Shown: piece by piece, positions 6,529-57,000 of the stretch
How positions within the stretch are numbered: the first letter of the stretch is position 1
How the letters are laid out: each line of letters starts with the position of its first letter
Assembly (NCBI GenBank): GCA_022925895.1
Contig: JAKSYS010000180.1
Coordinates: forward strand, 1-64,000
Source: Fragilaria crotonensis
Taxonomy: Eukaryota; Bacillariophyta; Fragilariophyceae; Fragilariales; Fragilariaceae
Direction of reading: 5' to 3'
Length of the DNA stretch: 64,000 bases
Notes under the pieces: model-generated
Seen by the model: the letters and a program-made list of their open reading frames with translations, nothing else
Told to the model about the DNA's origin: nothing
The model's database searches: none
Position numbers and translations under genes: made by a program

Positions 6529-6706
6529 GCCAGGAGAGGTGTGGGTGGGTGGGATTAACTAGAGTAGTGTCTTTGTCGATTCGAGTTCGTTCGGATTGTG
6601 AGCAATTCGTATCTTGTGTTGTGTTGTGTCGTGGTGTTCGTCTGTCTGTGTCTCGTGTTCGTCTGTCTGATGGCGACTGCCCGTCCTTTCGATCTTCGGA
6701 CATGCC
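6469..6706. repeat. YR-1 repeat B1 with hairpin cluster
   Basis: The segment between the two A copies. Its right part, from about 6562, matches B2 at 11082-11228 (GAGTAGTGTCTTTGTCG to GGACATGCC). Its first 60 bases hold three inverted repeats, described separately. Confidence 0.8.
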
Positions 6707-11081: not shown

Positions 11082-11228
11082 GAGTAGTGTCTTTGTCGAT
11101 TCGAGTTCGTTCGGATTGTGAGCAATTCGTATCTTGTGTTGTGTTGTGTCGTGGTGTTCGTCTGTCTGTGTCTCGTGTTCGTCTGTCTGATGGCGACTGC
11201 CCGTCCTTTCCCGATCTTCGGACATGCC
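11082..11228. repeat. YR-1 repeat B2 (coding-sense 5' end)
   Basis: It matches the right part of B1 and marks the right edge of YR-1. LINE-A sequence resumes at 11229. Confidence 0.85.
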
Positions 11229-11360
11229 AGGGAAAATCTGACACTGCGGAAAAAAAACTATACTGGATGTATTCTCAATCGGGGAATATATCCGGTCGTG
11301 TGAGTCAACCTTTCTTTCAGGAAGAAGCGGCAGCACGTTGAATTAGATTTTGGGTTTTTT
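11229..11360 (+). other. LINE-A 3' end
   Basis: The 3' end of LINE-A after the YR-1 insertion. From 11299 it carries the family tail: GTGTGAGTC, a variable stem-loop, AGCGGCAGCACGT, an A/T-rich stretch with TTAGATTTT, then a run of seven T that merges with the target duplication at 11361. Confidence 0.85.
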
Positions 11361-11373
11361 TATCATGGGAAAC
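11361..11373. repeat. Target duplication of LINE-A, right
   Basis: TATCATGGGAAAC, identical to 3713-3725. Confidence 0.85.
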
Positions 11374-11427: not shown

Positions 11428-11444
11428 TCATTCACACCTTTGTG
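11428..11444. repeat. Target duplication of RP-C, left
   Basis: TCATTCACACCTTTGTG, repeated exactly at 12272-12288. Confidence 0.92.
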
Positions 11445-12271
11445 AGAATTTTTTCCGAGGAGTTTTTGCCAAGTAAGTGGTTGTTTCTACGTGAGTTCTG
11501 GTACGTTTTCTACGCAACTTAGAGCACAACAAAGTCAAGTCAACGGATGGCGCTACAGCCTTCCCCCGACCTCTCGTCTACAAGTATCAACACCAATATG
11601 CTTGAGAATGATTGTGGTGCAATTGGCATCAACGCGTATGGAGCGGTTGCAGCGTTTGAGGTATCATCAGATGTGCGACGTGATCGATTTTTTCCTCATG
11701 TAGAAACCGGTATTGGTTCTACGCTGTCTATCCCAATTTTGCTTGATTCAACACCATCAGCGCTTGGGACCTCCGACCGATTGCTGGTATCCATACCAGC
11801 ACCGTGACCTATTTTACTGCTGACCAAGTACTGTGGCAAATCGATATGACTATTGGGGTGACTCCACCCAGTTCCATGACCCAACACCTTTCGCTTACGC
11901 GCTTTGGCGTTTCAAATGACCGAACACACCGCTACCAAATTCCGAACGAAAGTTGAGTGACCCGATCCTCCGAGTATACCGCTACGCACCATATGGTGGT
12001 GCTCTACATGCCCCGGCGTACACTGCGACAACTAAACCTACGGCAACTAAGTTCAATGATCCAAGGTTTTCCCGACTACAGTCACCCTCCCTATGATACG
12101 ACGATTCCATGCAGCATTATTTGGCACAATTTCAGTACGACAGTACTGCAGTAACAGAAAACAATGATGGTGGCCTCTACTGTACCCCAGGGTAGCGGTC
12201 ATCCGTGTGAGTCGAGTTCCGTCTTCGTCCGGAACAGCGGCAGCACGTAAAATAGATATTCGGTTTTTTTT
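11445..12271 (+). mobile_element. RP-C, non-autonomous retroposon with the LINE 3' tail
   Basis: An 827-bp insertion in the transposase of DT-1, bounded by a perfect 17-bp target duplication. Only its last 70 to 80 bases resemble LINE-A and LINE-B: GTGTGAGTC, a GTTCCG...CGGAAC stem-loop, AGCGGCAGCACGT and a T-run of nine (12264-12272, the last T shared with the duplication). The remaining 750 bases match nothing I recognise in the LINE and include short open frames (for example 11547-11807) with no known motif. It is best read as a passenger retroposon that borrows the LINE machinery through a shared 3' end, as tail-sharing SINEs do, but longer than usual. No tRNA-like head or box A/B was recognised. 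Confidence 0.8.
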
Positions 12272-12288
12272 TCATTCACACCTTTGTG
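12272..12288. repeat. Target duplication of RP-C, right
   Basis: Exact copy of 11428-11444. The transposase reading resumes here without frame change: the sequence upstream of RP-C ends in HTFV and this side continues with DLRHLP. Confidence 0.92.
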
Positions 12289-13879: not shown

Positions 13880-14068
13880 ATGTCGGTCTTTGAGGAGTCA
13901 AACCACGAAGACGACTTCGTTATTCTCACGGTAGACATCGACGATTGTCCAATTGCCGAACTACCACTCACAGAGATATACGATGTGACCACGTCTCTCC
14001 TGAAGGACGACTATACCTCGAGGATACCACATGGCTTGAGGACCAATCGGTATTACACAATTTTCTAG
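13880..14068 (+). CDS. Small acidic reading frame in DT-1, conserved in DT-2
   Basis: A 62-codon frame beginning MSVFEESNHEDDF and continuing with acidic and hydrophobic residues (VDIDDCPIAELPLTEIYDV). The first 41 codons are also present in DT-2 (46379-46504). Across these, seven of eight differences are silent third-position changes and one is Ser to Leu at codon 2; DT-2 then has a stop. This pattern points to past selection on the protein. Function is unknown; it could be a second transposon protein or a downstream exon of the transposase. After codon 45 the two copies no longer align well, so the native C-terminus is unclear. Confidence 0.6.
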   Translation: MSVFEESNHEDDFVILTVDIDDCPIAELPLTEIYDVTTSLLKDDYTSRIPHGLRTNRYYTIF

Positions 14069-14460
14069 TTCAGTTTCGCACAATACGTTCTGTCCGCCGA
14101 CCGTATCTGCGTACACCGAATAGGAAGTTGTCCCGTAAATTTTGTCACCGTTCCTTCTCCTACGTGTTTTTCTAGTATCGTTTCTACACACTCTAAGAGC
14201 ACACTAACAGTCATGAAAGGGAGGTTCCCCGAACCCCCTCGTTTCGATTCGACCATTGTCCCATATCCACCTGATAAAGGCAATGATGTTCCTGCAAAGC
14301 CATATTCGACAGAGCAACAGGGTGAAGAGAAAACAAACCACATTGATTTCACTTTTCCCACTCAAATATTACATTTCTACGTACGCACCTGCTATGTTTT
14401 CTGCGTTGCCGACAACTCAATCAAACAAATTTCCGTGCTCCGACCCATGAACCATCTCCC
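14069..14460 (+). other. Junction region before the minisatellite
   Basis: Around 14069 the similarity to DT-2 is lost. At 14087-14138 the sequence GTTCTGTCC...CGACCGTA...TAGGAAGTTGT is about three-quarters identical to 15260-15311, just upstream of LINE-B ORF1. An open frame starts at 14213 (MKGRFPEPPRFDS) and runs into the minisatellite. It has no known motif and I do not call it a gene. This is most likely the 5' region of LINE-B. Confidence 0.45.
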
Positions 14461-15240
14461 GATCACCGTCCTACTGTCTATTGTTCTACTGACAGATTTC
14501 CTACCGTCTACTGATCCTCCGATCACCGTTCTACCGTCTACTGTTCTATCAACAGATGTTCTACTGTCTACTGATCTCCTGATCACCGTTCTACCGTCTA
14601 CTGTTCTACCGACAGATGTTCTACCGTCTACTGATCCTCCGATCACCGTTCTACCGTCTACTGTTCTACCGACAGATGCTCTACCGCCTACTGATCCGCC
14701 GATCACCGTTCTACCGTCTACTGTTCTACCGACAGATGTTCTACCGTCTACTGATCTCCTGATCACCGTTATACCGTCTGCTGTTCTACCGACAGATGTT
14801 CTACCGTCTACTGATCTCCGGATCACCGTTCTACCGTCTACTGTTCTACCTACAGATTTTCTACCGTCTACTGATCTCCGGATCACCGTTCTACCGTCTA
14901 CTGTTCTACCGACAGATGTTCTACCGTCTACTGATCTCCGGATCACCGTTCTACCGTCTACTGTTCTACCGACAGATTTTCTACCGTCTACTGATCCTCC
15001 GATCACCGTTATACCGTCTACTGTTCTACCGACAGATTTTCTACCGTCTACTGATCTCCGGATCACCGTTCTACCGTCTACTGTTCTACCGACAGATTTT
15101 CTACCGTCTACTGATCTCCGGATCACCGTTCTACCGTCTACTGTACTACCGACAGATGTTCTACCATCTACTGATCCTCCGACCACCGACCTACTGACTA
15201 CTGCCCTACTGACTACCATCCTGACAACCACAATTTCCTA
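14461..15240. repeat. 60-bp minisatellite, 12 good units plus one degenerate
   Basis: Twelve head-to-tail units of exactly 60 bp run from 14461 to 15180, each starting GATCACCGTT, with a degenerate thirteenth to 15240. Each unit is itself built from CTACCGTCTACTG-like subunits. Because 60 is a multiple of three and units lack stops, two plus-strand frames and one minus-strand frame are open throughout; these are by-products. The block lies directly upstream of LINE-B ORF1, the position of promoter monomers in the 5' UTR of some LINEs. Confidence 0.9.
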
Positions 15241-15328
15241 GTTGGGAGTTTTTACATCGAGTTCTGTCCTTCGACCGTACATCCGTAGAAACCGTAGGAA
15301 GTTGTTGCGTATCCTCGCATCGTTCACC

Positions 15329-18226
15329 ATGACTGAAGGAACGGCCAAGTTGCCGTTCTTTGCGTCCGATAATCCCCCTGACATCTCCTCCTCTGAGTTC
15401 AACTTTACTATCGTTGCTTACGTTCAACCTCCCGTTCTGATCGAGCGAGAAAGTGATTTGAAAGCAGCAATTGAAAAGCGACAGATCGAGGATGATAGTT
15501 ACAGACGTTCCGTTTCACCGACCAGTTGGCATAGGTTCACGACCTTAGGATTTCAAGCGACAAATGGAAAAGATTTCGAGAAGGTGTGGCGGCAACGACA
15601 ATCTAACCCTCTCGACTTTCATCGGCTTGTATGGTTTAACTACAAGTCGTATGTTGACCGGGAATTCAATGTCAATCCTAAGTTACATGCGTGGGCAACC
15701 AGTGTCTCTCAACCTTTCCTACTCGAGCACTCACCAGAGTCATTGGAAATGGACACGGAACATTACAATTGGTTAAATATTCAAGCATATTTTACCAAGC
15801 ATCTGGATAAAGGATTGTGGAAAGAAGTGAGGGGAGCGAATAAACGAAATGCCAACAAATCGTCACCGGTTTCATCTCCGACAAACCTTCCTGACACGGA
15901 GGCTTCGGATACACCCAGTAAGACAACACGATTTAGCACTAACTTCGATGATGGAACAATTGAAGAAGGCATACACGATACCCAGAGCCCGGAACCTGAA
16001 ACAGGTTCCCCACAGATGGGAAACATACCAAATTCCCATGGCGACCTTGATATGGGTTCCGAGTCGGATGCTAAACAATCGGCATTCACTCTGAGCAACG
16101 AAGTAATGACAAATGACGGCACTCATCGCATCTCGTTTAAATGGAAACTCTCGCAGAAGGAGTTCAATGAGATTGTTGATGACAAGCAACGCCTTATTTC
16201 GGAACTCCATTCCATGTTGGGCATTGTTTTTCTAGATACCGATGGGTTGTTCTATATGTGGGATGGTGAAGACTTGGTGAATCCAAAAAGAGTTAACGAC
16301 TTGACCATCTCTGACTTGAAAGATTACATGGAGCCTCAGGTAACGAAAGTGCATACTATGCACCTGATTGTGTTTGCAGTGCGTTTCGCGTTCACTGAGA
16401 ATCCTATTTCGTGGAGGAATTCAGATCACGCACAAGAAGCAATGAAGTTGAATAATCTCCGGATCCAGGAGTCCAATATCAACACCATCGCAGGGATCCC
16501 CATTGTGGCCGGTTATATCTTGCTTAAGCATCCGACAATGACTCTCCGTCATAAGTATACCCAATTTCTCAGGTCTCAAGCTGCAGATACATTACCATAT
16601 TTTGACATTCGTCTCCATCGGAAGACGCCAACCGACAAGTCGATTGCTCATTTGGTGGTTTACTGTGGAGAGACCCAGGTGACAGAACTTTGCCAAGGCC
16701 TCTCAAAAATCTTGAACGGACAGCAGACAGCGGTGTTTCTCCCTCGATATACTTTTGCAAATATGTCGAAAGACCAGATTGACAACCATTTTGGCATGCA
16801 TGACACGTATGTTCGAGCATTACGACCAATTTCACTAGCACCGCTGGTGACAACCCTGGATTTGAAGCGGATTGAATATTTCTCGGATGGTACAACAATT
16901 GAAAGGTCGACGCGTGACTGGGTTTCATCTCTCATGCGAACAGACGGGACGACTCATGCACAATGTGATGTGGTCAACGGAACAAAGAACGTCCGAATTG
17001 CTTATGTTATGGCTCCAGCAGCATACGCACCAGAAATCAGAGAGATGGTGACTCAGTACAAAGAACGTTTGCGCCCGATTTCTCATCGAGAAGCTAAGTA
17101 TCGCGAAGGGATTCCAGATTTACCAGATGTAATCCATATTACATCCACGGTTCAAACCAACTTAGACTACATGGCAAAGTTGTCGTCCAGCGACATCTGG
17201 AGTAAGGCTCCATCATCAGTCAAATCTCCGTCCTCTGCTGCAGGGTCACCCAATGTAGCAAGACGTCCAACACAGTCAGGCGGGTCGACTCATAGTGAGG
17301 ACAGAACTCAGTGGCCGTCCCTGGTTAAACGACCAGGAGGAACCAACGCATCTAGTTCGATCACGTCCGAGAGGCAGTCGGGAGGCAAATCTCAATTCAA
17401 GGAGAAATCCACATCCCAAGCTGCCCCGCGAGAGAAAATTTCACAGACCAGTCTCAATTCTGCGGAGAATGACGAGCGAGCAGAAACCGTTTCTACTCAC
17501 TCGCTGACTAATACCTTACGAACTTCGGCGACAACGCGGATGACCGAGCTGGAAAACCAGATGCGAGAATGTCGGGAACTATTACGGTCAAATCGGGAAG
17601 CAGCTCGAGATTCATCGGAACGACTAGTGGCTACTGAGCAGGGTCTTCGCGAAACAATGGAAACTATCACGGAGATGACTCATACAGTGGCTGCCCTTCA
17701 AACGCAGTTCGCCGGTTTCAACATTACGATGGAAAGCATGCGCTTGATGCTTCACACGTTGATGCATCAACAAAGTAACAACACGACTCCGCAGTATGCT
17801 GCGCTCCCATACACCGCCTTCCATCCACCCCCCGCTACCATCCCGTTGGTCACGATTCCGGAATCTTCACATACGGCTACAATGAGTATGGAGTCTGAGG
17901 AAGAAAACCAGTCTACAACATCGGAGGGATCTAAGTATCGACAATCCCCGGAAAAGAAGAAGACAAGGAAACATGAGGATCACAGGAATCCAAATCGCAC
18001 GATTCCCCAGACCGATTTGGCAGATGTTCAAATGCAATTATTTGACGAATCGTCTCCAGACGGACTGCAAGATGCTATCGTCGGTAATCAATACTCAACA
18101 ACAGATCAACTTCCTGGTAGCACAGCTCGGCAGTCACAATCATCACCAACAACTCAACAAACCTCCAGCCCCCCGGACGCTCAATACACACTTCCACGCG
18201 ATCCGGCTGGGCAGGAAGACACATAA
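15329..18226 (+). CDS. LINE-B ORF1 protein
   Basis: The open frame reaches back to 15242, but the Met at 15329 lies in a good context (CACCATGAC) and directly downstream of the conserved UTR block, so I prefer it (965 codons). No RRM, zinc knuckle or other known domain was recognised. A likely coiled coil lies at about 17540-17770 (ELENQMRECRELLRSNREAA and following heptads), as in trimeric LINE ORF1 proteins. The flanks are rich in Ser, Thr, Gln and Pro. ORF1 proteins of LINEs bind element RNA and act as chaperones; that role is inferred from position. It ends in TAA, which overlaps the ORF2 start. Confidence 0.75.
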   Translation: MTEGTAKLPFFASDNPPDISSSEFNFTIVAYVQPPVLIERESDLKAAIEKRQIEDDSYRRSVSPTSWHRFTTLGFQATNGKDFEKVWRQRQSNPLDFHRLVWFNYKSYVDREFNVNPKLHAWATSVSQPFLLEHSPESLEMDTEHYNWLNIQAYFTKHLDKGLWKEVRGANKRNANKSSPVSSPTNLPDTEASDTPSKTTRFSTNFDDGTIEEGIHDTQSPEPETGSPQMGNIPNSHGDLDMGSESDAKQSAFTLSNEVMTNDGTHRISFKWKLSQKEFNEIVDDKQRLISELHSMLGIVFLDTDGLFYMWDGEDLVNPKRVNDLTISDLKDYMEPQVTKVHTMHLIVFAVRFAFTENPISWRNSDHAQEAMKLNNLRIQESNINTIAGIPIVAGYILLKHPTMTLRHKYTQFLRSQAADTLPYFDIRLHRKTPTDKSIAHLVVYCGETQVTELCQGLSKILNGQQTAVFLPRYTFANMSKDQIDNHFGMHDTYVRALRPISLAPLVTTLDLKRIEYFSDGTTIERSTRDWVSSLMRTDGTTHAQCDVVNGTKNVRIAYVMAPAAYAPEIREMVTQYKERLRPISHREAKYREGIPDLPDVIHITSTVQTNLDYMAKLSSSDIWSKAPSSVKSPSSAAGSPNVARRPTQSGGSTHSEDRTQWPSLVKRPGGTNASSSITSERQSGGKSQFKEKSTSQAAPREKISQTSLNSAENDERAETVSTHSLTNTLRTSATTRMTELENQMRECRELLRSNREAARDSSERLVATEQGLRETMETITEMTHTVAALQTQFAGFNITMESMRLMLHTLMHQQSNNTTPQYAALPYTAFHPPPATIPLVTIPESSHTATMSMESEEENQSTTSEGSKYRQSPEKKKTRKHEDHRNPNRTIPQTDLADVQMQLFDESSPDGLQDAIVGNQYSTTDQLPGSTARQSQSSPTTQQTSSPPDAQYTLPRDPAGQEDT

Positions 18227-18228
18227 TG
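18224..18228 (+). promoter_or_regulatory. ORF1/ORF2 TAATG overlap
   Basis: The ORF1 stop TAA (18224-18226) shares its last A with the ATG of ORF2 (18226-18228). Such UAAUG overlaps are known to couple termination and reinitiation in some LINEs, for example SART1. Coupling here is inferred. Confidence 0.75.
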
Positions 18229-21200
18229 CTTCGAAATCGGCAACTTTCCATGGTATCTGAGGGGGACACCCCGTCAGTGCCAAATGAATCATTGCCAGTC
18301 GGTCAGGGACTTCAGAATCTTGTTGACAATCCAAATTCGACACCTATATGCTTACTAGAAAGTGCAAAGTTGCAATGGCGCCAGTTGTTTTCCAGGTCAA
18401 GCCAGGGCAATGTATCGAGAGCAAATGTTTTAAGCACGTCCAATATGCGCTCGAATGCGCCGTGGGGAGATGTACTGGGACCGAAAGCGTCAGGTATCAC
18501 TAGACTTTACTCAATAAATGTAAACGGCATTTCTATTGACCGGAGAGGCGGAACGTTTGCGGACATTTGCCGATCCATAAAAGAGGTACAGGCGGACATT
18601 TTCTGCGGACAAGAACACAATTTGGACACCACGCAATTCCGCATACGGAGTGCATTGTTCGAATCGGCAAAACAGCATTGGAAAAAACATCGAATATCGT
18701 TCGGGACGACACCCATCACGGTGGAAAAACCATATAAACCAGGAGGGACCATGATCTTGACGGTGGACAGTTTAATGGGTCGAGTGGTCCGACAAACTCG
18801 AGATTCGTGGGGAAGGTGGGTAGTTCAAGAATTTAAGGGCAAAGGGACACGTCAGATTGCAGTTTTCTCGGTGTATCAACCGGTGGATAAAACAGTTAAA
18901 CCAGGTACCATCACGGTCGCAGCGCAACAGGCAAGTCTTCTCCGTTTGGCACAGGATTCGGTTCTGAATCCGAGAACGGCGTTTAGGCGAGATCTCTTGA
19001 GGGCACTTCAGGAATACTTATCGGCCGGTACCTTATTGTTAGTGGTCGGTGATTTTAATGAATCTTTCGGAGCGGACCCTGACGGAATGAGTAAGATTGC
19101 AGGACAACTGGGTCTACTGGACATCATTGCAAGTCGTCATTCGTCGAAACCGCCAGCTACATACGCACGCGGGACAAAACGACTGGATTATGCTCTCGCT
19201 AGCCCTCTGGTGGGAGAAGCACTTATTTCTGCTGGCTACGAAGAATTCAACGCCCACATCGTGTCTGACCACCGAGGTTTCTTTCTTGACTTCGACACCA
19301 ATCTATTGTTCGGTTCTGAAACCCAACAACTAGTATCTGCAGAAGCGAGAGACCTGTCATCCAGTAACATTCGGCAGGTGACCGCATATATCCGAGAGAA
19401 ACACCGGATTCTGTTTCATCATCACAATGCCTTGGCCAGAAGTGGGCAATTGTCCCTTCCGGGAAATCGGCATGCCTTTGCGGAACGCCTTGATCAAGAC
19501 GTCTTGGCAGCAAGTCTAGCAGCGGCGGCGAAAGTGAAGCAATTCGACGAACCTGCATGGTCGGTCGAACTCGCTGAAGCTCGAAAATTGGTCGTCATCT
19601 TGAAGAAACAGAGGTCAGCCTTACGAACACTGTACGACCACTCAAGTTTATTGGCGAGCGAGATGGCTAAGCTCTCATCCCCAGTGACACTGCCTTCCAC
19701 AGTACCGGAATGCAACACGGCAATTCGTAAGGTAGAAGTCACAATCAGGGAAATCATTGCCGAGAGCTATGAGCGACGCGACCAAGAAAGACAGCGAAAA
19801 ATTGCGACACTTGAAATGTCGGGGAAAAAAGCCGACAAGGAATCTGCCACCAGGCTGCGACACATGAAGAAGGCTGAGGATATCAAACAGTTATTCCGAA
19901 AGATTAGTGGTGTGCGAAACAATAAAGTTCGGAGAGGTGTGACGCGTATCGAAATTCCTTTACATCCCGCGCACGATCCCAAAACATGTACTGAATGGCG
20001 ACAAGTTGAGGTTCCAACGGAGATTGTGCGTTTATTACAGGAACGGAATCGTAAACATTTTGGACAAGCCAAGGGTACTCCGTTCACTGTTCCGCCTCTT
20101 CTCGACGACTTGGGCTTTCGAGGTGATCGGCCATTGAGTCAGCGAATTCTGGAGGGCACCTATGAACACCAGCCGGGCGAGGTCGATCAAGTGAGTGAAA
20201 ACGTGCGATTACTTCTTCAACATTTTGAACAGGTCCAGGAAATGGCTGAAGCCCCTTCATTTCCTACTATCTCTATGGACGAATTCACAAGTAAACTGCG
20301 AGTTTGGTCGGAATCTACCACCACATCTCCGTCCGGTATGCATCTTGGACACTACAAGGCCTTGATTGCTCGTCACTCTTACTCATCCGACCTTCCGGAT
20401 GAAGAATTGACGCAAGAGTTTCGGGACAATCGGGATGAGTTGAACAGGATGCAAGACGATTTGCGGAATCTTCATTTGACTTTGTTAAACTATGCGCTTG
20501 AACGTGGGTACTCGTATCGACGGTGGCAGACAATTGCCAATACGATTCTCTTTAAGGACCAGGATAACGTTCGGTTGCATCGCACTCGAGTGATCCATAT
20601 CTATGAGGCAGATTTTAATCTTGCCTTGGGAATCAAGTGGAGGATTCACATGTATCAAGCGGAAGCCTTGGCAGCATTAAATGACGGACAGTATGGGTCC
20701 AGACCACGCCGCAACGCTACAGACCCGGTGTTTATTGAAGAACTGCAGTGTGAGATTTCGAGAGCAACACGGAGGTCCGTGGCTCTTATAAATTACGACG
20801 CCCTAGCATGTTTCGATCGCATAATTCCAAATGAAGCAATGATTGTGAGTCGGAAGTTTGGAGTGCCGCTATCAGTGACGCAGGCAAATGCTCTCACTTT
20901 AGAAAAAGCGGAATTTCGGGTTCGCACAGAATTGGGTCTGGCTCCAAGCGGTTACTCACATTCATTGGATATGCCGATTTATGGTACTGGACAGGGCAGT
21001 GCCAATTCTCCAGCAATATGGTGTTTCCTGTCAAGCTGCTTGATGGATGCCTATGATACGAAAGCAACACCAGCGGTGTATTATGCGCCGGATGAATCCA
21101 CGTCGGTTTCCTTGGGTCTCGTGGCGTTTGTGGATGATTGTAATGGGCAGGCAAACAACTTTCTGGCATCGGGGTCCGACGAGACATTGCGGGATATCCT

Positions 21201-23742
21201 GACGAGAACACAGCAGAATGCTCAATTATGGAATGATTTGCTTCACTCTAGTGGCGGAGCTTTGGAATTATCCAAATGTTCGTGTCAAGTCCTCCATTGG
21301 TGGTTCACAAACCAAGGAGCACCGTTTCTGGCTCCGAAGCAGAGTACTCATCAAGAGGTGTTACGAGTCATTGACCGCGCAACGGAAACGACTCACCAAC
21401 TTCCTCTCTTGTCGCCATATGAGGCGCATAAGACGCTAGGCCATTATAAATCGCCAGCTGGTACCCAAAGTGAGCAATTCAGGAGACTCAAGTCAAAGAG
21501 TGACGAGATCACGGCGTTTTTGTGGACGTGCCCCCTTACCCGTCTTGAGACATGGACATTCTATTACGCATGTTACCTCCCGAGTGTTGGTTATCCTTTA
21601 GCATGTTCATCACTCACGAAGAACCGACTAGATAAAGTACAACGGAAAGCGATGTCAATTATAGTTCCCCGATGCGGCTTTAATCGGCACACCAAGACTG
21701 AAATACTCTACGGTCCTCTTGCATTGGGTGGTGCAAATTTCCGACACCTCTACGTTGAACAAGGCATTGGGCAAGTTGGACTGTTCATTCGGAACTGGCG
21801 ATTAAAATCAACAGCGGGAAAATTGTTACGGATCGCAGTGGGTTGGTTCCAACATCAAATAGGCACCTCCTACTCGTTCTTGGAGAAAGTCGATACACCC
21901 CTCCCACATTTGGAATCGAAATGGTTAGCATCTCTGCGCGAGTTCTTGCATGCGATCAAATCATGTTTACAACTGGACAACCCAGGTATACCAACGACCC
22001 AACGACATCACGACACTCATATAATGGACGCGATTCTGGAGTCCCAATTATTCTCGGCATCGGAGATACGAAGGCTCAATTATTGTCGACTTTATCTCCA
22101 CGCGCAAACGATCTCAGATCTTACGGACGTGTCAGGATACTACTTGGATCGCGCCAAGTACGAGGGTCGTTTCTCTCACACAAGCAGCACCACTCATGGT
22201 ATGTGGATCCACCAACACCGTCCTTCCCTTCCCGAGTGGAAGTTATGGCAACGCGCAAACTTACTCTGGAGCGACGAGGCCGGCAAACTGCACCAGGCTC
22301 TAGGCCCATGGCTGCAGCCTATCAATAAACATCGTCAAAGCCATGCAGCTTACCAGTTGGGAAACCGGTTGTGGATTCGAGACCGACAATACTACAGGAT
22401 CTGCGAACTGTCGGGGACAGCAGGAGGGAAGACTCGAGCACAGTTCCGACGCACTCGTGCCCAGTGCAAATGGCAACATATTCCCACTTTAGCAGTCCCC
22501 GTGGAGGTTGATGACGTGGCAGAGTACAACTGGGAAGTGACGGCGAGAAGTACTGTTATGGCTCCGCCTCGCATGGTACAGATAGCAACCTTCGAGCAAT
22601 ACATTGCAGATCTGGATTCTTGGGAGTATGACCTTCTCTCGCGCACGACATTATCAACAGATCCCTTCTCGATTGGATTGGCTTTATCCTATGGAGTACG
22701 AGGGGTTAGTGATGGATCAGTATGGCTCAAGCAAATGGGAGCATTCGGGTGGACTTTAAGCACGGATATGGGAGAGAGGACAGCAGAGGGGATGGGACCA
22801 GCGCCGGGGGCAACTCCAAACTCTTATCGATCCGAAGCGTATGGCATGTTGGCGATGCTGTGCTTTTTGAAGCGACTGGCCGAGTTTACTTATCAACATG
22901 AACCTTGGCAAGGAACCCTTGCCACAGACAGCTTAAGTCTGGTGGATACAGTTCTTGGCATCAAGCGGCGTCGTACTCTGGTGGAGGAGGTTATGTCGGA
23001 ACAAGATGAACCTGTGCAGCTTCCTCTCGATCCATTGAGTCCTGAGTGGGATTTGATTGTCAATATCCGCAGGTTGTTTAGTGAAATGCCGGGACTTACT
23101 CTTGAACATGTCCGAGGTCATCAGGATCAACGGACTAATTATCAACGGCTGAGTCTCATGGCACAATTGAATGTTGATGCTGATGCAATGGCTACTACTT
23201 TTCAACGAGAGTTTGGTGCCATACGACCTTATGCCTTGTTGACCGAGGACGCGGGCGTACACCTGATCACCCCAAACGGCACAGTAACGACAAACTACAA
23301 AGCGGCAATTCGACATCAAGCCACATATGGCCCATTGCTGGCGCATCTCCAAGCGCGTAACGGGTGGAGTTCTAGTACTACGGAGAGGATTAATTGGAAA
23401 GCCCACGCTACTTGTCTTCATAAGCGCATGACGCGACGAGATCATTTTATCAAATTGGTTCAGGGCATTTTACCAACAAATCATGCCCAGCATAGGAGTG
23501 ATCCCAGACGCCGCGGGTGCCCGACATGCACTACGTGTCGGGATGAAGACTGGGAACATATTCTGCGATGCGACCATCCACGTCGGGCGGCGTGGCGTCG
23601 CACTTTACTCGGGGCCCTGGCAAAGCTATGCGATAAATGGGGGACTCGTCCAGGCCTACGGAATATTCTCTTGGATGGCATCCGGGGGGTGGTTCGACAG
23701 TACCGAACCGGCGTTGTATCAGTTGGAAACGGCAATTTATGA
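18226..23742 (+). CDS. LINE-B ORF2: endonuclease, reverse transcriptase, RNase H
   Basis: 1838 codons. The APE-type endonuclease occupies roughly residues 90-380: SINVNG, CGQEHN with the metal-binding Glu, VVGDFNESFG, RLDYALAS and SDHRGFF. The reverse transcriptase lies at about 700-1000: SGMHLGHYK, NYDALACFDRI with the first catalytic Asp (about 858), YGTGQGSANSPAIW and AFVDDCNGQ with the DD pair (about 968). RNase H follows at about 1490-1655: VSDGSV, YRSEAYG, ATDSLS, VRGHQD and NVDADAMA. A zinc knuckle CPTCTTC...HILRC is at about 1764. The protein nicks target DNA and copies its own RNA there. The frame closes early: the last 180 residues of the family are in another frame after a run of six G at about 23689. 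Confidence 0.9.
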   Translation: MLRNRQLSMVSEGDTPSVPNESLPVGQGLQNLVDNPNSTPICLLESAKLQWRQLFSRSSQGNVSRANVLSTSNMRSNAPWGDVLGPKASGITRLYSINVNGISIDRRGGTFADICRSIKEVQADIFCGQEHNLDTTQFRIRSALFESAKQHWKKHRISFGTTPITVEKPYKPGGTMILTVDSLMGRVVRQTRDSWGRWVVQEFKGKGTRQIAVFSVYQPVDKTVKPGTITVAAQQASLLRLAQDSVLNPRTAFRRDLLRALQEYLSAGTLLLVVGDFNESFGADPDGMSKIAGQLGLLDIIASRHSSKPPATYARGTKRLDYALASPLVGEALISAGYEEFNAHIVSDHRGFFLDFDTNLLFGSETQQLVSAEARDLSSSNIRQVTAYIREKHRILFHHHNALARSGQLSLPGNRHAFAERLDQDVLAASLAAAAKVKQFDEPAWSVELAEARKLVVILKKQRSALRTLYDHSSLLASEMAKLSSPVTLPSTVPECNTAIRKVEVTIREIIAESYERRDQERQRKIATLEMSGKKADKESATRLRHMKKAEDIKQLFRKISGVRNNKVRRGVTRIEIPLHPAHDPKTCTEWRQVEVPTEIVRLLQERNRKHFGQAKGTPFTVPPLLDDLGFRGDRPLSQRILEGTYEHQPGEVDQVSENVRLLLQHFEQVQEMAEAPSFPTISMDEFTSKLRVWSESTTTSPSGMHLGHYKALIARHSYSSDLPDEELTQEFRDNRDELNRMQDDLRNLHLTLLNYALERGYSYRRWQTIANTILFKDQDNVRLHRTRVIHIYEADFNLALGIKWRIHMYQAEALAALNDGQYGSRPRRNATDPVFIEELQCEISRATRRSVALINYDALACFDRIIPNEAMIVSRKFGVPLSVTQANALTLEKAEFRVRTELGLAPSGYSHSLDMPIYGTGQGSANSPAIWCFLSSCLMDAYDTKATPAVYYAPDESTSVSLGLVAFVDDCNGQANNFLASGSDETLRDILTRTQQNAQLWNDLLHSSGGALELSKCSCQVLHWWFTNQGAPFLAPKQSTHQEVLRVIDRATETTHQLPLLSPYEAHKTLGHYKSPAGTQSEQFRRLKSKSDEITAFLWTCPLTRLETWTFYYACYLPSVGYPLACSSLTKNRLDKVQRKAMSIIVPRCGFNRHTKTEILYGPLALGGANFRHLYVEQGIGQVGLFIRNWRLKSTAGKLLRIAVGWFQHQIGTSYSFLEKVDTPLPHLESKWLASLREFLHAIKSCLQLDNPGIPTTQRHHDTHIMDAILESQLFSASEIRRLNYCRLYLHAQTISDLTDVSGYYLDRAKYEGRFSHTSSTTHGMWIHQHRPSLPEWKLWQRANLLWSDEAGKLHQALGPWLQPINKHRQSHAAYQLGNRLWIRDRQYYRICELSGTAGGKTRAQFRRTRAQCKWQHIPTLAVPVEVDDVAEYNWEVTARSTVMAPPRMVQIATFEQYIADLDSWEYDLLSRTTLSTDPFSIGLALSYGVRGVSDGSVWLKQMGAFGWTLSTDMGERTAEGMGPAPGATPNSYRSEAYGMLAMLCFLKRLAEFTYQHEPWQGTLATDSLSLVDTVLGIKRRRTLVEEVMSEQDEPVQLPLDPLSPEWDLIVNIRRLFSEMPGLTLEHVRGHQDQRTNYQRLSLMAQLNVDADAMATTFQREFGAIRPYALLTEDAGVHLITPNGTVTTNYKAAIRHQATYGPLLAHLQARNGWSSSTTERINWKAHATCLHKRMTRRDHFIKLVQGILPTNHAQHRSDPRRRGCPTCTTCRDEDWEHILRCDHPRRAAWRRTLLGALAKLCDKWGTRPGLRNILLDGIRGVVRQYRTGVVSVGNGNL

Positions 23743-24238
23743 CGACGAGTATGAACGCCTTATCGTCCAACAAAATAGGATCGGCTGGAAACATATATTC
23801 CTTGGAAGATTCAGTTGTGAGTGGGCTGATTTACAGGATGCTCATTATGTCACGAGGCCGAACTATAACTCAAAGAAAAGTCGAAAAGGGGCCAAGTGGC
23901 AAGTTGCTATCATTGGGCGTTTGTGGGATGATTGGTATCTATTGTGGGAGAGTCGGAATAATGATTTACATGGCGCGAATGCACAGCAGCATGCATTGTT
24001 GGAGCGTCAGAGAGCTGTGCAAACGCTCCGAGAGTTGTATGCACTACGAAACCACTACGAGCCGTCTGTTCAAGAATTATTGATGGACGATGTCCGAGAG
24101 CATGAGGCCAAGTCTACGTGGCACATTAAAACCTGGTTACAACTCAACGAATCAGTTCTGAGGACAAGTATGCAACGGGCGACGCGACGGGCGATAGCGG
24201 GAATGAAGACGATAAAGTCGTATTGGACTATGCATTAA
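23690..24238 (+). pseudogene. LINE-B ORF2 C-terminal domain, out of frame
   Basis: From about 23690 the family C-terminus reads in the next frame: GWKHIFLGRFSCEW, WYLLWESRNNDLHG, then ALRNHYEPSVQELL and RAIAGMKTIKSYW, ending in TAA at 24238. LINE-A has the same domain in one frame with its zinc knuckle, which shows that the split here is a single frameshift, probably in the G run at about 23689. An assembly error in that run would leave ORF2 whole at about 2000 residues. Confidence 0.8.
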
Positions 24239-24365
24239 GGCGGAAGGATCACCTATGGATGTGCGGTCTAGTCTACTACCAGGCTACGGTTGCACCGTGT
24301 GAGTCGGGTGTTCATATATACCGGACATAGCGGCAGCACGTTAAATTAGAATTGGTGTTTTTTTT
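24239..24365 (+). other. LINE-B 3' UTR and tail
   Basis: After the stop, 127 bases end in GTGTGAGTC (24297-24305), a GTCGGGT...ACCGGAC stem-loop, AGCGGCAGCACGT, TTAAATTAGAATT and eight T. There is no poly(A). The tail is shared with LINE-A and RP-C and is the likely recognition site for the reverse transcriptase. Confidence 0.85.
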
Positions 24366-26330: not shown

Positions 26331-28310
26331 CTACCATCCCATCACTGTCTTACGATGGAGGCAATGTGACTCTTCATTCAACGGCTTCGTAAGGAAGTCC
26401 GCTGGTTGATCATTCGTTCGGATGTGATGGATGCTGATTTCCTTTCGCTCAACGTAGTCCCTGAAATGGTGAAGCTTGACGTTTAGATGCTTCGTCCGAG
26501 GTCGATACTTGTGGACACGAGCCATTTCCAAGGCTCCGCTGTTGTCTTCGAATACACGACAGTGCACCCGAGCCTGCGTCGTCGATACCGGATATCCTCG
26601 TTCCTTCATCTCCTTCAACAACTCCATTATAGGGATCGCGTCTCTCAGCGCGTAACTCAGACCTGTGTATTCGCTCTCCGTCGACGACAGGGCCACTTCC
26701 GTTTGCAATTGGGATTTACAGCAAGGGCAGTTGGCATACTTGATGATATACCCATGGCGTGACCTCGCTGTATCACGATCGCTCGCTGCCTCCTTTGGAT
26801 CCCAATCACCACAGAAGCTTGCGTCAACAAAGACCTCCAAGTCCTTGTTCGTCATCGGTTGCATAATCGTACCTTTGTCTCTGGTTCCCAACAAATAGCG
26901 CCCCAGCCATCGCACTGCGTCCCCGTGTTCTTTCTTGGGGTCGGATACGAATCTGGCGCATTGGTGGACGGCGTACGCGATGTCACTTCGTGTCGCCTTC
27001 TCGAGATAGTTCAGCTTCCCAATGATCGATCTATAATTGAACGAGTTGTCGAATGACTCCGAGTCCGAATGTCTTGTCAGTAGTTTCGATGACGCAGCCG
27101 GAGTCGAACGCGATTTAACATTCGTGCCGTTCAATCTCAAGTCTTCCAGAATCTGGTCGATGAGATGTGGTTGCGACAGATGTATCGTACCGTCGGTCCT
27201 CCGATCGATGCTGACGCCAAGGAAGTCGGCAAGGTCGCCTTCAACTGTTATGGACAACTTGGCCTTCCTTTGAAGCTCGTCAATGATCTTGTCGATCTCT
27301 TTCTTGTCGGGGCCAGCCAATAAACTATCATCGGTGTATAGGACGTACAACGTTGACCCTCTGTAGAAAACGCATTCGTCCACCGCCGATTGTTGGAAAC
27401 CCAAGTCTTTCACCAGTTTTCGCACAAGATATTGGTTCCATACGCGTCCCGCTTGCTTCTGGCCGTAGATGTTCCTGTGGATCTTGAGGACAAAGTCGTT
27501 TGGATTCGAACCATCCTCAAGTTCCATCCCTGCTGGGACCTTCATGTACAGCGTCTTCTCCACGGGAGCTTGAGCGAATGCTTGAACAAAGTCAATCTGC
27601 TTCGTGTGCCACCCGTGCGCGACTGTCATTGTCAGGAGCATTCTTACCGAGTTCCAAGAAGCGACCGGCGCGTACGTCTCATCATAGTGCTCACCTCTCT
27701 TCATTCGCGAGCCGTCGATGTTCAATCGCGCTTTATACTTTTTGATCGATCCATCCTTCGCGTCGCGTTTTCGTTTCATCTGCCAGACGGCGGGTAGGAT
27801 GGTTTGTCCTTTGGGAACCTCAGACTTTGGAATGATGGTGAAGTTGCCATTGTTGAATTGGTCTGTCACCTCCTTTGTCATGCTCTCCTTGAACATCGCC
27901 CTGTCCTCCTCCTTCATCGCCTGGTGGTAGTATAACGTGTCCGGGTCCGACACTGCCTTGTATGCCATCAACGGGTTGCGATAAGCCCATCGGTCGTCGT
28001 CTGGGAACATTGCCACGTAGCAAAATATTTCTCCTTCGACATCGTTCCGAGTGGCGTCGCTGATCTCCGTGCACATCGCCGCGAGATATTTCTGAGGTGG
28101 CTTGATTGTGCGCCCGAATTTCGTCTTTTGAATTCGGTTCGCATCACCCATCGTGCTGTCGCCCGTTTCTGTTGCATCGATGGGTATCGGTGGACCGTCG
28201 TCCCCGACGTTTGCTGCAGCTGGCTCCTTCTGACTTGAAGGCACCGGTTCGCCTGCCCTTGCTCTCTCGTTTGGTGTGTGGCGTTTTCGTTTTCTGCTGG
28301 AGCCCGTCAT
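26331..28310 (-). pseudogene. Copia-1 reverse transcriptase and RNase H region
   Basis: Ty1/copia-type Pol on the minus strand. Reverse transcriptase signs are KYKARLNIDGSR, ETYAPVASWNSVR, IDFVQAFAQAP and the YTDD box; RNase H signs are VDASFCGDW, LSSTESEYTGL and EDNSGALEMA, ending PADFLTKPL. Domain order integrase-RT-RNase H is that of the copia superfamily. Described as a fossil part. Confidence 0.85.
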
Positions 28311-28319
28311 GCTCGTCGT

Positions 28320-30276
28320 TTGGCTTGACGGTGACGTAGTGCTTCCTCGTCGTTAGCTCCTTCTGAGACGTTACGAATCCCGCTCTCAGTTGCCACGACG
28401 ATTTCGTCTTGACGTTCTTCACGGTATCGAATGTTGCATCGTAAGCGACGTGAAATTGAGGGCTCACCAAGGCTGTGTCCCTGTCCATCACGAATGCAAC
28501 GTTTCGTCCGTGTTGCGGTGATCTCCCCAAGTAGACTCCGGCTCTCGACCGTTGCGACCATTTGTGGAAAGGTCGGTTGCTCTGCAGCTCGTTTGAGAGC
28601 AGATAGGTCGGGCACCCGAATGGCTTCCAATTGGTCGCCACCTTCGAATTGGAGAATACCTCGATGGGGCTCCTTCTGGCTGCGTCTTGCATGCTTGGAG
28701 TATGGTTGACCGCGTCATTTGCGTTCCGAATGGCGTATGGCCATAAGTTCGCAGTTATCGTATCGCTCCATCTTGCATTCGCGTGTGTCAACATCGCGCG
28801 TGCCAGTTCTTGGAGTTCGCGAATTCTTCTTTCCGCGATACCGTTCTGGTGGTGCGCGTTTACAGCTGCGAAGGTCATTCCTTGTCCGTCCAGCTTGCAT
28901 GCGTCCACCCACTTGTACGCCTTGAAGATTCCGTTGTCGGCGTGGTAGTTTTCCACTTTCACTCCGTGCCGGTGGGAGTATGCCTCAAACGCTCGCTTCC
29001 CTTCCACTGTCTCCTCCGCTGACGCTGTCTTTTGGAGATAGATAAACCCCAGTCGACTGAATTGATCAACGTAGACAGTCGCGTGGCGGTATCGTTTCGT
29101 GGTCAGGAAGCCAGTCATCTGGGCAATCAACCCTGGCGTGGGTGAGACGAGTTGATCCACCGATACCACTTGTCCTGGTTTCGTCAGCTTGGCATCGTCG
29201 TCGTCGCCGTCCTTCCTCGGTTTGTTCCGCCAAGGTCGTTTTGTTGCCTTCGCGTAGAGGCATGCCGAACATGTTGGAACTCTGCACTTCGAAAGACGTC
29301 GCGGCAAGATTCCCTGCTTGGCCATCTCTTGGAGTTTTCTCATGGAGATGTGTCCGAATTGATGGTGGATCGCCAACAGCTCTGACAGGTCATTAGCTGG
29401 CTGTCGGTCCTCCTCGTCAAGGATGATGTTCACGTTCGTCGTTCGCGGCAGTTCCATGTCGGTCGTTGTGGGTTGCTCGCCCGTTTGCGGCGGTTTGTTT
29501 GTTGCTGCCTTCCTTGTTTCCCCCTTTGAAGGGGTACTGGATGGTCCGTCGAGGGTGTGAGTCGTCGGCGTTGGATTGGTTTCGTTCGAGTGCTTCCAAG
29601 CGTTCGTCAGCATCTTATCGTTTCCTGTCTCGACTTCGTCGTCCTCCTCGTCGTCTGATACGAGACCCGAAGGCATCGCGATGACGTCCCGAGTCGATTC
29701 ATCCAGTTCAGCTTCACAACAGAAGGCTCGAAATTTCTCGAAGCCTGATGCCATCGTGAAGGTTGCAACATTGTCGTTCTTACCAAGTGGAATTCTTACT
29801 TTGTACTTTCCACCTCCCCAAAACAACACGCACTCCCGTCCGTTGGTGTATTCACCACACTTGTCACATTCGGGACCTGTCGTCTGGGTCTGGGACCAGT
29901 GTTGCGGACTCAATAGTCGAACTCGTCCGTCGGGAACGTAGTATGAGTTCGGAATTGTGAAGGTGTGTTTCCTTCCCAACTCGTCCTCCCAACTCCAACG
30001 TAGCGTGCCGACTTGCACGTTCGTCGTTCTCGTTCCTGCGAATCCCTTCACGACCCGATCCGTCGGCCTCAGTTTCCCAACAAAGTCCTCCTTCACGTGT
30101 GAGATGCACCCCGAACATCGGTTGTCGATTCCGATCGTTTCCGAATCGGTGTCAAATTGGGTTTTCCGTTCGGTCGCAATCGTAGCATTCGCTTGCATGG
30201 CGAGAACCGTCATTGCCATGACGGTCCCCCTTCGCCCCCAGCTTGCTCGTTTGCGATTGATTCGATGGTGTGCAGT
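28320..30276 (-). pseudogene. Copia-1 protease and integrase region
   Basis: A protease-like IGIDNRCSGC segment at about 30130, an HHCC zinc-binding block (IHHQFGHIS to CRVPTCSAC) at about 29270-29380, and the integrase core with YVDQFSR, YHADNG and HHQNGIAERRIRE at about 28800-29080. The right edge is cut by the Copia-2 insertion. Confidence 0.85.
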
Positions 30277-30459
30277 CAAGTAAACTCCAGTGCGATAAAA
30301 TTAGTGCTGACGTAAGTGGACGATCTGACGAAGAGGATGTATGGTGAAGGGAGAAATGACGCGTCTGTAGATTACACACAATTTTTATCTTAGCTCTTAT
30401 CTTTCTTTCTCTTTTACCTTGTTGCTACTGTAAGTGTTCATTATGACTTTTATTACTTG
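30277..30459 (+). repeat. Copia-2 5' LTR
   Basis: Begins CAAGTAAACTCC and ends TTATTACTTG, so its tips form the inverted repeat CAAGTAA/TTACTTG instead of the usual TG/CA. Same as 43271-43453. Confidence 0.9.
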
Positions 30460-33627: not shown

Positions 33628-33870
33628 CCATGCAGAGCATGGCCAGGAGGTAACCGGCGCCAGGGGCGCCGATGAACCTAGGCATCGGGCCAGGAGAGGA
33701 GGTGTGGGTGGGTGGGATTAACTAGAGTAGTGTCTTTGTCGATTCGAGTTCGTTCGGATTGTGAGCAATTCGTATCTTGTGTTGTGTTGTGTCGTGGTGT
33801 TCGTCTGTCTGTGTCTCGTGTTCGTCTGTCTGATGGCGACTGCCCGTCCTTTCCGATCTTCGGACATGCC
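33628..33870. repeat. YR-2 repeat B1 with the three-hairpin cluster
   Basis: It holds the same three inverted repeats as YR-1 (33628-33688), then the segment shared with B2 (GATTAACTAGAGTAG to GGACATGCC). Confidence 0.8.
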
Positions 33871-40036: not shown

Positions 40037-40192
40037 GATTAACTAGAGTAGTGTCTTTGTCGATTCGAGTTCGTTCGGATTGTGAGCAATTCGTATCTTG
40101 TGTTGTGTTGTGTCGTGGTGTTCGTCTGTCTGTGTCTCGTGTTCGTCTGTCTGATGGCGACTGCCCGTCCTTTCCCGATCTTCGGACATGCC
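40037..40192. repeat. YR-2 repeat B2 (coding-sense 5' end)
   Basis: It matches the right part of B1. Copia-2 integrase sequence resumes right after it. Confidence 0.85.
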
Positions 40193-53841: not shown

Positions 53842-54060
53842 TGTTAATCCTACAAGTAGATCATCCTTGCAGGAAAGCATGTCTTGATTCAGTTATGAAT
53901 TATCTAAAACATAGAAAAGTGAGCATTACCTTGTTCGGGAGTCATCCTTCAATCCCGAGTCGTACTGTGCAGATGTAGTACCGTATAATGGTACTTGATA
54001 CTTGATACATGATTCATAGCATCCTGAATGATACAGTACCGGTAGCTTGTAATATCAACA
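53842..54060 (-). repeat. Copia-4 5' LTR
   Basis: Pairs with 47538-47755. The leader between it and Gag is about 460 bases without other features. Confidence 0.9.
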
Positions 54061-54064
54061 CTTG

Positions 54065-57000
54065 GTCCATATGTCCTTCTCGTGGACTCGCTTGATATTG
54101 CGAAAGGAGTGACACCTCAAGTAATATATCCACCCTCCCGATCTCTGTGGCCCATCGGAGTACACCGATAAGTTCTTGGAAATAAGTGACGTCGTCTTCA
54201 TTCAAGTCTTCCGTTATGTCCATTTCTGGTGAAAATGTTATGTTCATCGGAGTGTCAATATTTGAAGTGGGCAGACGTCTACCCGACCTCTTGATAGTTT
54301 CTTCTACGTTCTTTACCGCGGCTTTGACATAATCCTGACTGGTGACTGTCCAACATTGAAAACCGTTGATATCTTTCTTCTGTAGCTTAGCGCCCAAATA
54401 AAACTCCGGGGCTTCTATTCGTCCATTCTTGAACTTGAATGTGACTTGGATCTCTTCGAGGATCGATCGTGCATCACAAGATATGGCAAGGATGTCGTCA
54501 ACATACATCAAGACATATTCATAGTACGATTCACCGTCGCTCTTCGTTGCCGCTCTCAACCAGACATCAGGGTCGGCCATCGACGATAGAAATCCCATGG
54601 ATGTTAATTTTTCAGCCATATACGACCAAAAACTGAAGCTCGCTGACTTCAATCCGTATAGAGCTTTAACGACAAGGAAAGTCTTGCCTTCCTCTGATCC
54701 AAATTCAGGGCCCGCGATCATCCAACACTTCTCCTTGTTAGGTGCCGTCAGAAATGCATTTTGGACGTCGGCGCCAAGGATATCAAGATCATTCAACGCG
54801 GCGATCGTTAAGAGGATACGTACTGAATCGCGTGATACCACCGTGCTGTAAGTCACTGATGCAGGTGCACCTGTTTTGTGGCCGTCGGCACAATATCTTG
54901 CTTTTCTTCGGAAGTTTTCTCCGAGTTTAACGTCAAACACAAGGTGACCCGTGATCTGAGTATACCCAACGAGCGTACTAGGGTCGCCATCGAATTCTTC
55001 AAACGCTATTCGTACGTTACGCATCTCCAATTTAATGGCATCCATCCATAACGTATTTCCCATTTCTTTATCGATCTCCATGGCTTCCTTGATGCTCTTA
55101 GGGATGCGTATGCCATACTTGTGAGTTCGAGCCCAGTACTTTGTCTTCACCTTCTGAAGAATTCGTTTCTGTTTCCGCAAAGTATAGGGCACCCACCAGG
55201 CGAATGCCGGTTCGTCTCCCAGTTTGTGAGTGGTCGCATAAATCGCCAACTCAACTGGATACGAATCCTTCAGATCTTTTAACGTCACCCAATCACTAGA
55301 ACCATCACGCCATTCGACGAGAAGTTCCCATCCTCGTGTTGTTGTCTTGCGTCGCTTGACTCCATACGTGTTGACATAAGTCCCCTGACTCTGGGGAATA
55401 GCGTCGGGTAGTACCCGATGATCAATTATATCTGACAACATCATCTGTCGTCGTCCCTCTTCGTCGACTTGAGCCATCAAGTTCTCTGCAATCAAGTTTG
55501 CTGTGAGCTCCTCGATCTGTCCATCCAAGTAATGGACTTCGTATTTCCTGGAGTCAAGCAAAGGGTTGGTATGGGCAATTCCGACCGGCTTGCCGTCCTC
55601 GTCCCGGACACGTCTGCGCACAGTTGCATGTACAAGCGCACCGTCTGCGTCCCTTGACAGTGCCATCTCCATACCAACATACGGGTCAGAAGTAACCTCT
55701 GTATCATGTGTGGTGTTCTCATCAGCATGCTTTAATCGTGCATCGTCGATCACCCTAGTGAACTCGTCAAAGAAAGCTGCATCTTCATCTTCGGGATCGA
55801 TTACATAGCTTGGATGAATATCGCGCAGTGTCCTCGTGAGGTCGGCAGATTGAGTCTCGAATATACGCTGAAGTCTTTCATCATATTGTATCATTCGTTT
55901 CTTCATCTCATCCGTCGTCTTCTCATCGTTCGTCATCCGTTGAACTGTCGTAGCAGATATCGGAATCCCACTTTCCGGCAGAAGCCAATACGACATGAGC
56001 CGCCCGACTCGATGTGATACACCAATCCACCGGGCTACTTCAACTTCCCCCAGTCCTGCGTTACTTCGGTAAAGGACCCAATCGTAGAAGTCAAAGTCCA
56101 AGTATTCGGAAATGTCTGGTGTGTCACCGGTGATAATCTCCAAAGGGGTCCGGCCATCGGCATACCTGGACATGTTAGCACAGACGTTGTCCGTTTCACA
56201 TACCCAAGTAAAGCCATAATCCCAAAGGCGAGGCGGCACTTTCTTCTTGAGCATCAAGCGATACCACCTTTTCTTTAGTTCATGTATTCCTTGTTCTGCA
56301 GGATTCTCATTCGGCCTTCGGGGACCAGAGACGTGGTACTTTATTTCATATCTGCGTATCGCGTCCATGAAACGAGTCTTCGGACCTGTCTGAACCGACG
56401 CCCCATCAAAAGTCAGGCGCTCCGGAACGCCATAATCACTTATGAATTGGGTCAGAGCATCGCCGACTGAGTTACCATCAACTTTCTGGAGAGGATAACA
56501 TGCCTTAAACCCACATTTATGTGAGAACAATTGTGAACCAACATTCCCTCGCAGTGATTTGATTTTTCCGTACGCAGTATCAGTTGCGAATTTCCCGTTC
56601 AGTCGCTTGACCGCAAACATGCGATCTGCTCTGTATCGTCTGCTAATGGGCAGGATGGCTGATCTAACGCCTCTCTGGGTTGTCACTCGCAAAGTCCGTT
56701 GGGCTCGCGGGATGCTTATGCCAAACTTTTCCGCGATCATTTCAGCGGTAACTTTCGTGTGTCGTTCATCACTAACGAATGTGCGGCGTGCAGGAGTGTC
56801 AGTCTGGTCGTATACCGTCTCAACTTGTGCGGATACGCGTTTGAGCTTCTGATGTAATCGTTCACCGAGTCGTACAAGTGACGGATCAATTGAATCCATG
56901 TGCGCATCATCGGAGCTAATCTCGACATCGGTATACTCGAATCGGTTGTACGTAGAGTCGGTCGTCTCAATTTGGCGCTTCCATGGGTGATTTCTTCCGC

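Follow-up and report, generated by a model that had tools for sequence, protein, structure and literature searches.

How a LINE protein picks out its own RNA is an open question, as is the relation between relaxed recognition of poly(A) and stringent recognition. The locus studied here raises this question for elements whose copies end in T. It lies in a window of 64,000 nucleotides of Fragilaria crotonensis (contig JAKSYS010000180.1, positions 1 to 64,000), the whole stretch of DNA that was analysed. In keeping with a diatom host, the genome has 61 matches to light-harvesting proteins. Two of these proteins were compared with solved structures; one came out closest to antenna chains of 6ly5 and 6l4u (E 1.1e-87), structures from the diatom Chaetoceros, and the other was uninformative. 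Our analysis indicates that the 3′ tail at this locus probably belongs to a clade of stringent-type LINEs, whose template RNA would carry two hairpins as a tag and, as read from the DNA copies, end in oligo(U).

LINE-B is a non-LTR retrotransposon (LINE), which combines an APE-type endonuclease and a weak RVT_1 match in a single ORF. Its parts are as follows.

15229–24364, forward strand: LINE-B element, about 9.1 kb, 5′ end probably ACAATTTCCTAG
15242–18226, forward strand: ORF1, 994 aa, no credible Pfam match
18226–23742, forward strand: ORF2, endonuclease at residues 96–349 and reverse transcriptase at residues 816–978

The Pfam matches of ORF2 were Exo_endo_phos (5.9e-10) and RVT_1 (7.3e-5, under the curated cut-off of RVT_1), and RNase H and C-terminal CCHC motifs were seen by eye only. 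A comparison of ORF2 with PDB sequences gave no match at E ≤ 1. The 5′ limit was placed at 15229 because the C607 copy becomes similar to LINE-B from there (79.5% over 629 columns), and no 5′ target duplication of LINE-B was found in the window. The 3′ limit was set by an uninterrupted Copia site in C723. The 3′ junction lies inside a Copia element of which the upstream half was not found in the window, and the 5′ flank of LINE-B may have been lost or rearranged. At 23483–24238 the C-terminal part of ORF2 seems to run on in another frame, and this copy may be broken; at other loci with a reverse transcriptase (RT) the open frames reach 2116 aa. Directly 5′ of LINE-B, at 14057–15228, a second start that resembles a 5′ end (ACAATTTTCTAG) is followed by an ORF starting MKGRFPEPP, and a 60-bp tandem repeat is present there in 12.5 copies. 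The stretch may represent either additional 5′ sequence of LINE-B or a separate non-autonomous element.

According to an earlier note on this window, LINE-B, LINE-A and RP-C end in a common motif, a stem-loop, a spacer and a T run. We found this arrangement in all three, at the places given there. The tails consist of the following features.

24261–24295, forward strand: P1 hairpin of the LINE-B tail, from the covariation model
24296–24340, forward strand: P2 hairpin of the LINE-B tail, lower helix CGTGT/GCACG and GTCG/CGGC, tip GTGTTC/GGACAT
24297–24340, forward strand: LINE-B tail core
24341–24357, forward strand: A/T-rich spacer of LINE-B, read from the sequence
24358–24365, forward strand: T8 tail of LINE-B, the last T doubling as base 1 of the target site
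11262–11337, forward strand: P1 and P2 of the LINE-A tail, from comparison and folding (z −3.59)
11298–11337, forward strand: LINE-A tail core, T7 tail at 11355–11361
12169–12247, forward strand: P1 and P2 of the RP-C tail, from comparison and folding (z −2.32)
12205–12247, forward strand: RP-C tail core, T9 tail at 12264–12272

Within the window, AGCGGCAGCACGT with at most two mismatches occurs in the tails of LINE-B, LINE-A and RP-C only, where all three instances are exact. Because 13 of 100 shuffles gave at least three matches at the same tolerance, this count is a weak test alone. In the genome (62.1 Mb, 881 contigs), the exact two-block pattern GTGTGAGTC-N8..38-AGCGGCAGCACGT had 36 matches and the relaxed pattern GTGYGRGTC-N8..38-CGGCAGCACG had 170, while the reversed control of each had none. 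The tail family is real and larger than first reported. A T run of at least five within 95 nt was present in 101 of 105 distinct tails, and 88 of the 105 had at least seven T; in one of the 101, L061, the T run lies 75 nt off and is not a tail. The spacer measured 15–18 nt in 95 of the 101, and T-run length across the family ranged from 5 to 19. The four tails that lack a T run of this length are L074, L102, L103 and L084.

Copies ending in poly(A), as expected of the relaxed L1 type, would speak against the reading of the earlier note. No tail with a poly(A) ending of its own was found among the 105, nor among 13 tails added via the position of the RT (see below). The apparent A14 of L084 turned out to be the T tail of another element in the opposite orientation, so that two convergent elements lie tail to tail. 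The DNA pattern of the tail also appeared in two viral contigs, as the same GC-rich stretch in both, with neither spacer nor T run, and was judged a chance match; at the protein level no relatives were found in viral contigs.

Comparison across the family resolves the tail into two adjacent hairpins, P1 and P2. The 12–15 bp stem of P1 ends directly at P2, which has the layout CGTGY-GR-GUCG-A-(6-bp tip)-AG-CGGC-A-GCACG with a near-invariant lower helix and a variable tip. This modifies the first description of the tail in several respects. GTGTGAGTC and AGCGGCAGCACGT, taken for the outer flanks of a stem-loop, pair together (CGTGY/GCACG, GTCG/CGGC); given the layout of P2, these two conserved blocks mainly form opposite sides of a single helix. 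The stem GTCGGGT/ACCGGAC assigned to LINE-B was in the wrong register, and the comparison supports the tip GTGTTC/GGACAT instead. Finally, the structure begins ~35 nt further upstream with the missed hairpin P1.

The same note had read the pairing of differing stems as selection on structure and had called for a covariation test over many copies. This test was run, and covariation is present. A covariation model built from 11 tails gave 96 matches in 89 loci. In 93 distinct sequences, 92.3% of cells paired vs 77.4% in shuffles, and double changes occupied 415 cells vs 120. They affected 20 of the 27 pairs, including 12/12 in P1 and 6/6 in the tip, and slid registers of this set paired at 30–47% only. 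A second, overlapping set of 34 sequences with more diverged tails gave 157 double changes vs 44.7, here also in the lower helix. In a strict single-pair test (40 simulations), 3 of the 27 structure pairs reached E < 0.05, compared to none of the non-structure pairs.

The alignments were built with the structure model and favour structure, a lean that is shared by the shuffle, single-pair and tree tests and by the 34-sequence set. For this reason a tree-based null and an alignment-free test were run as well. The tree-based null used the alignment of the shuffle test with gap-rich rows dropped (89 rows), and compensatory branch events numbered 34 vs 2.0 in P1 (maximum 9 in 300 simulations) and 19 vs 1.1 in the tip (maximum 6 in 300 simulations). 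The alignment-free test, which is free of this lean, covered 72 of 73 distinct tips (53 distinct arm pairs); these paired 85.9% at fixed offsets vs 64.5% with partners swapped. Folding of P1 gave a mean z of −2.63 in 84 distinct upstream stretches (48 below −2), compared to 0.07 in 54 control stretches (4 below −2). Taken alone, LINE-B prefers another structure in a single-sequence fold (z −0.62, with 55 of 200 shuffles equally good); the single-sequence fold of L002, its close relative in C560, equals the consensus. Selection on the structure of the tail is strongly supported, and our results show that P1 and the tip of P2 vary widely in sequence while their pairing is kept.

The tail accompanies reverse transcriptase genes. 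The RT region of LINE-B has at least 94 matches in the genome at 50–100% identity (two places are counted as two rows each), which is a lower bound as 92 of 568 candidates were scored. For 43 of these 94 matches, a tail from a list of 204 places follows on the same strand, no more than 6 kb downstream; in 34 of the 43 it lies 2696–2806 bases from the RT (about 2.75 kb). The controls gave 4 tails on the opposite strand and 1 upstream. The RTs of the 43 tail-linked loci are 52–100% identical to that of LINE-B. From the 51 other matches, 20 loci were drawn, mainly from the top of the list (one of them, C607, had shown a tail match beforehand), so that these results cover 63 of the 94 matches. The structure was present on the correct strand at 13 of the 20 (E at most 1.9e-15), each time with a T run of 9–17 at its end. 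As the tails of L147/L148 and of L151/L152 are identical, the 13 represent 11 distinct tails. At the other 7 loci no tail was found at the place expected from the RT position, and none of the 20 has an A run longer than 7.

The tail is not confined to LINEs. RP-C is a complete non-autonomous element with the following limits.

11428–11444, forward strand: 5′ target-site duplication of RP-C, 17 nt, TCATTCACACCTTTGTG, preceded by AC
11445–12271, forward strand: RP-C, about 826 bp, 5′ end AGAATTTT, same tail as LINE-B
12272–12288, forward strand: 3′ target-site duplication of RP-C, 17 nt

Twelve other copies align from the first base of RP-C, 11 of them at full length and L070 in two pieces. Duplications of 14–19 nt flank the RP-C-type 5′ end in 10 of the 13 copies including RP-C, with a few ambiguous bases in those of L019 and L031. 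No target duplication was found for L010, that of L014 emerged only in a wider search described below, and L036 has extra 5′ sequence, as its duplication lies ~118 bp further upstream. Other families of 0.8–1.2 kb have similar ends (L045/L055/L064, L028/L021 and L058), and the 5′ end of LINE-B resembles the 5′ end of the short elements. The tail is common to RP-C, the L045/L055/L064 and L028/L021 families and the LINEs. Judging from this common tail, the similar 5′ ends and the duplications, the short elements would keep both element ends and use the LINE machinery in trans.

Several copies of the short elements contain ORFs of 200–317 aa; in other copies the frames are shorter or interrupted. 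ORFs that otherwise differ (L032, L024, L021, L045, L064 and window 11445–12271) have the C-terminal peptide FFPHYSHPPY in common (FPHYSHPPY in L045/L064), a hint that selection acts on the protein. Two of these ORFs were scanned against Pfam with nothing credible, and the short-element ORFs have no real similarity to ORF1 or ORF2 of LINE-B.

A tail shared with short partners and a structured tail under selection are both features of stringent-type LINEs. The stringent tail recognition suggested in the earlier note gains indirect support here, because diverged LINEs and short non-autonomous elements carry the same tail. The RT of the element, with the ORF2 protein as putative reader, would recognise mainly the near-invariant lower helix of P2 and its internal loops, and P1 and the tip of P2 may be retained as shape only. 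Alternatively, the hairpins might serve formation of the RNA 3′ end, its stability or its uridylation, as a substitute for a poly(A) signal, instead of recognition by the RT. Hairpins can replace poly(A) signals, and the structure sits directly before the spacer and the U run; this alternative fits all of the conservation data. However, the near-invariant helix is little changed across LINEs with RTs only 52–60% identical to that of LINE-B, and it is common to the non-autonomous elements, which is the usual mark of stringent recognition. Moreover, no Rfam family matched: there was no match by gathering score in the window, with its one RP-C copy, and 20 tail loci gave none at E ≤ 1. We therefore regard a role in the RNA 3′ end instead of recognition as unlikely, although the two roles may coexist.

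Target duplications are seen in the LINE family, and element lengths are varied. Leaving out L050, L051 and L061, we took 61 copies that have a T tail and whose available sequence measures 1 kb or more, and searched them for duplications starting from 4 bases before to 1 base after the end of the T run. Clear target duplications of 12–21 nt were found in 26 of the 61. A wider search at +2 to +60 in the other 35 copies added one duplication, that of L014, which follows T10-G-T6 at C|T (control 0). The remaining 34 copies are without duplication; the flank of ~1.5 kb is too short for long copies. In the undisturbed target, position +1 was T in 25 of the 26 insertions, and position −1 was C in 18 and A in 6, with TT following in all six A cases. 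Hence, 24 of the 26 insertions are at C|T or A|TT. The empty site of LINE-B in C723 reads CCTAC|TGTCTCC. The bottom-strand primer ends in A in 25 of the 26 cases and can thus pair with the U at the end of the RNA.

We propose the following mechanism. The template RNA would end in P1 and P2, adjacent and stackable, a spacer of usually 15–18 nt and oligo(U). The endonuclease of the element would nick the bottom strand at 5′-A^GT or AA^T, as read from these duplications and the one empty site, and the terminal A of the primer would pair with the U end, where reverse transcription would begin. The U run would play the part that belongs to the A run in L1 and to a microsatellite in other LINEs, and its length may vary by slippage or RNA tailing. 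Four pairs on different contigs have common flanks (L044/L069, L082/L089, L113/L114 and L119/L120), which suggests allelic or duplicated contigs, and T-tail length is unequal in three of them (T14/T8 in L044/L069, T9/T8 in L082/L089 and T6/T5 in L119/L120). Because such flank-sharing copies differ, part of the spread in T length may be post-insertion or assembly noise.

Another explanation might be that the LINE RNA is ordinary polyadenylated or read-through RNA, in which the hairpins position the RT to start internally at the U run, the real RNA end being further downstream. A coding RNA of 9.1 kb such as that of LINE-B is normally polyadenylated, and the DNA copies reveal only where reverse transcription started. 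Yet the 26 duplications begin at the T-run end, within the search range of −4 to +1, and the wider search in the other 35 copies revealed no A tail and no transduced sequence beside its one T10-G-T6 case. An internal start point would need great precision, and we consider it quite unlikely.

The earlier note had also mentioned a Pol III-like terminus, and short T runs after hairpins do look like the ends of Pol III transcripts. Some T-tailed plant SINEs exist as well (PMC3747384, Table 2). This suggestion was not supported. LINE-B contains four internal T5 runs, and the 13 listed RP-C-type copies have a T6 near base 5, within their first 10 bases, plus further runs of at least five T; such internal runs would be expected to stop Pol III. 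Tails reach up to 19 T, and the window, with its one RP-C copy, contains no tRNA gene. That the elements are Pol III transcripts with the T run as terminator is highly improbable. Recent common ancestry without constraint on structure is an even less tenable explanation of the similarity, to the point of being negligible, for although the set includes many closely related copies and a few from allelic or duplicate contigs, neither the compensatory counts nor the pairing observed in P1 or the tip was matched in any of the 300 simulations on the tree, and the alignment-free pairing test points the same way.

A two-hairpin tag with an oligo(U) end would make this clade a variant of the stringent LINEs, an established kind in which a 3′ stem-loop is combined with a short repeat (PMC4176376). 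According to the same paper, the L2-clade elements UnaL2, ZfL2-1 and ZfL2-2 need their stem-loop for retrotransposition, and the region between EN and RT binds it. UnaL2 and ZfL2 resemble our clade in having a 3′ stem-loop followed by a short 3′ repeat, with a tail that is common to SINE partners. They differ from it in having one hairpin instead of two adjacent ones, and their specificity resides in the loop, whereas sequence conservation in our clade resides in the lower helix of P2. Furthermore, the 3′ repeat of UnaL2 is TGTAA (PMC3747384), in contrast to the putative poly(U) of this clade.

A second comparison is offered by the monocot L1 lineage of LINE1-1_ZM with ZmSINE2 and ZmSINE3, for which PMC3747384 describes a 3′ hairpin with compensatory changes common to LINE and SINE. 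This common hairpin is similar to our results, and ZmSINE2 ends in (T)n. However, the T ending in that group is reported for the SINEs, whereas here the RT-bearing LINEs themselves end in T. In the table of 3′ repeats in PMC3747384, which covers 269 LINE families from plants and green algae, no (T)n is named and 14 families have no repeat. The same review also describes the p-SINE and Au SINEs of plants as ending in short T runs and suggests partner LINEs that recognise poly(U). p-SINE and Au belong to seed plants and are SINEs for which that review lists no partner, in contrast to the algal LINEs and LINE-ended non-autonomous elements found here.

Human L1, of the relaxed type, requires poly(A), and 3′ uridylation cuts its retrotransposition by 20 to over 90% (PMC11014359). 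In both systems a nick by the endonuclease would prime reverse transcription at a homopolymer RNA end. That end is poly(A) in human L1, whereas in our clade it would be U, to judge from the DNA, with a primer ending in A. The T-ended copies thus suggest a start of reverse transcription that is the mirror image of that in human LINE-1, and the clade would be a natural contrast to L1 with its sensitivity to uridylation.

More broadly, the entire LINE clade may have given up poly(A) for a two-hairpin tag and oligo(U), encoded or added by a uridylyltransferase, with priming from A-ended nicks (A^GT) as the mirror image of L1 priming and small parasites copying the same end. It would then exemplify the poly(U)-recognising LINE postulated for T-tailed SINEs; this wider proposal is about as likely as not. 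The clade provides a concrete LINE with T-ended copies, and in a 2013 review LINEs of this kind were put forward as possible mobilisers of T-tailed SINEs (PMC3747384). Since dozens of natural tail variants keep the same core, the candidate recognised bases can be read off directly. One open-access library yielded no report of a U-ended LINE clade or of this tail in diatoms, which is weak evidence of absence as its scope excluded Repbase and most subscription papers, and the word 'tail' does not occur in a paper on Tisochrysis (PMC5963040).

The window is dense in mobile elements. It contains a Plavaka-like transposase match at 890–2239 and two Copia-type stretches with RVT_2 matches at 26331–30279 and 54014–57154. 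A tandem unit with a period of 21, TGTGTCGTCGTGTTCGTCTGTC, occurs in four copies (6625–6669, 11145–11189, 33788–33832 and 40109–40153), which probably belong to another dispersed repeat.
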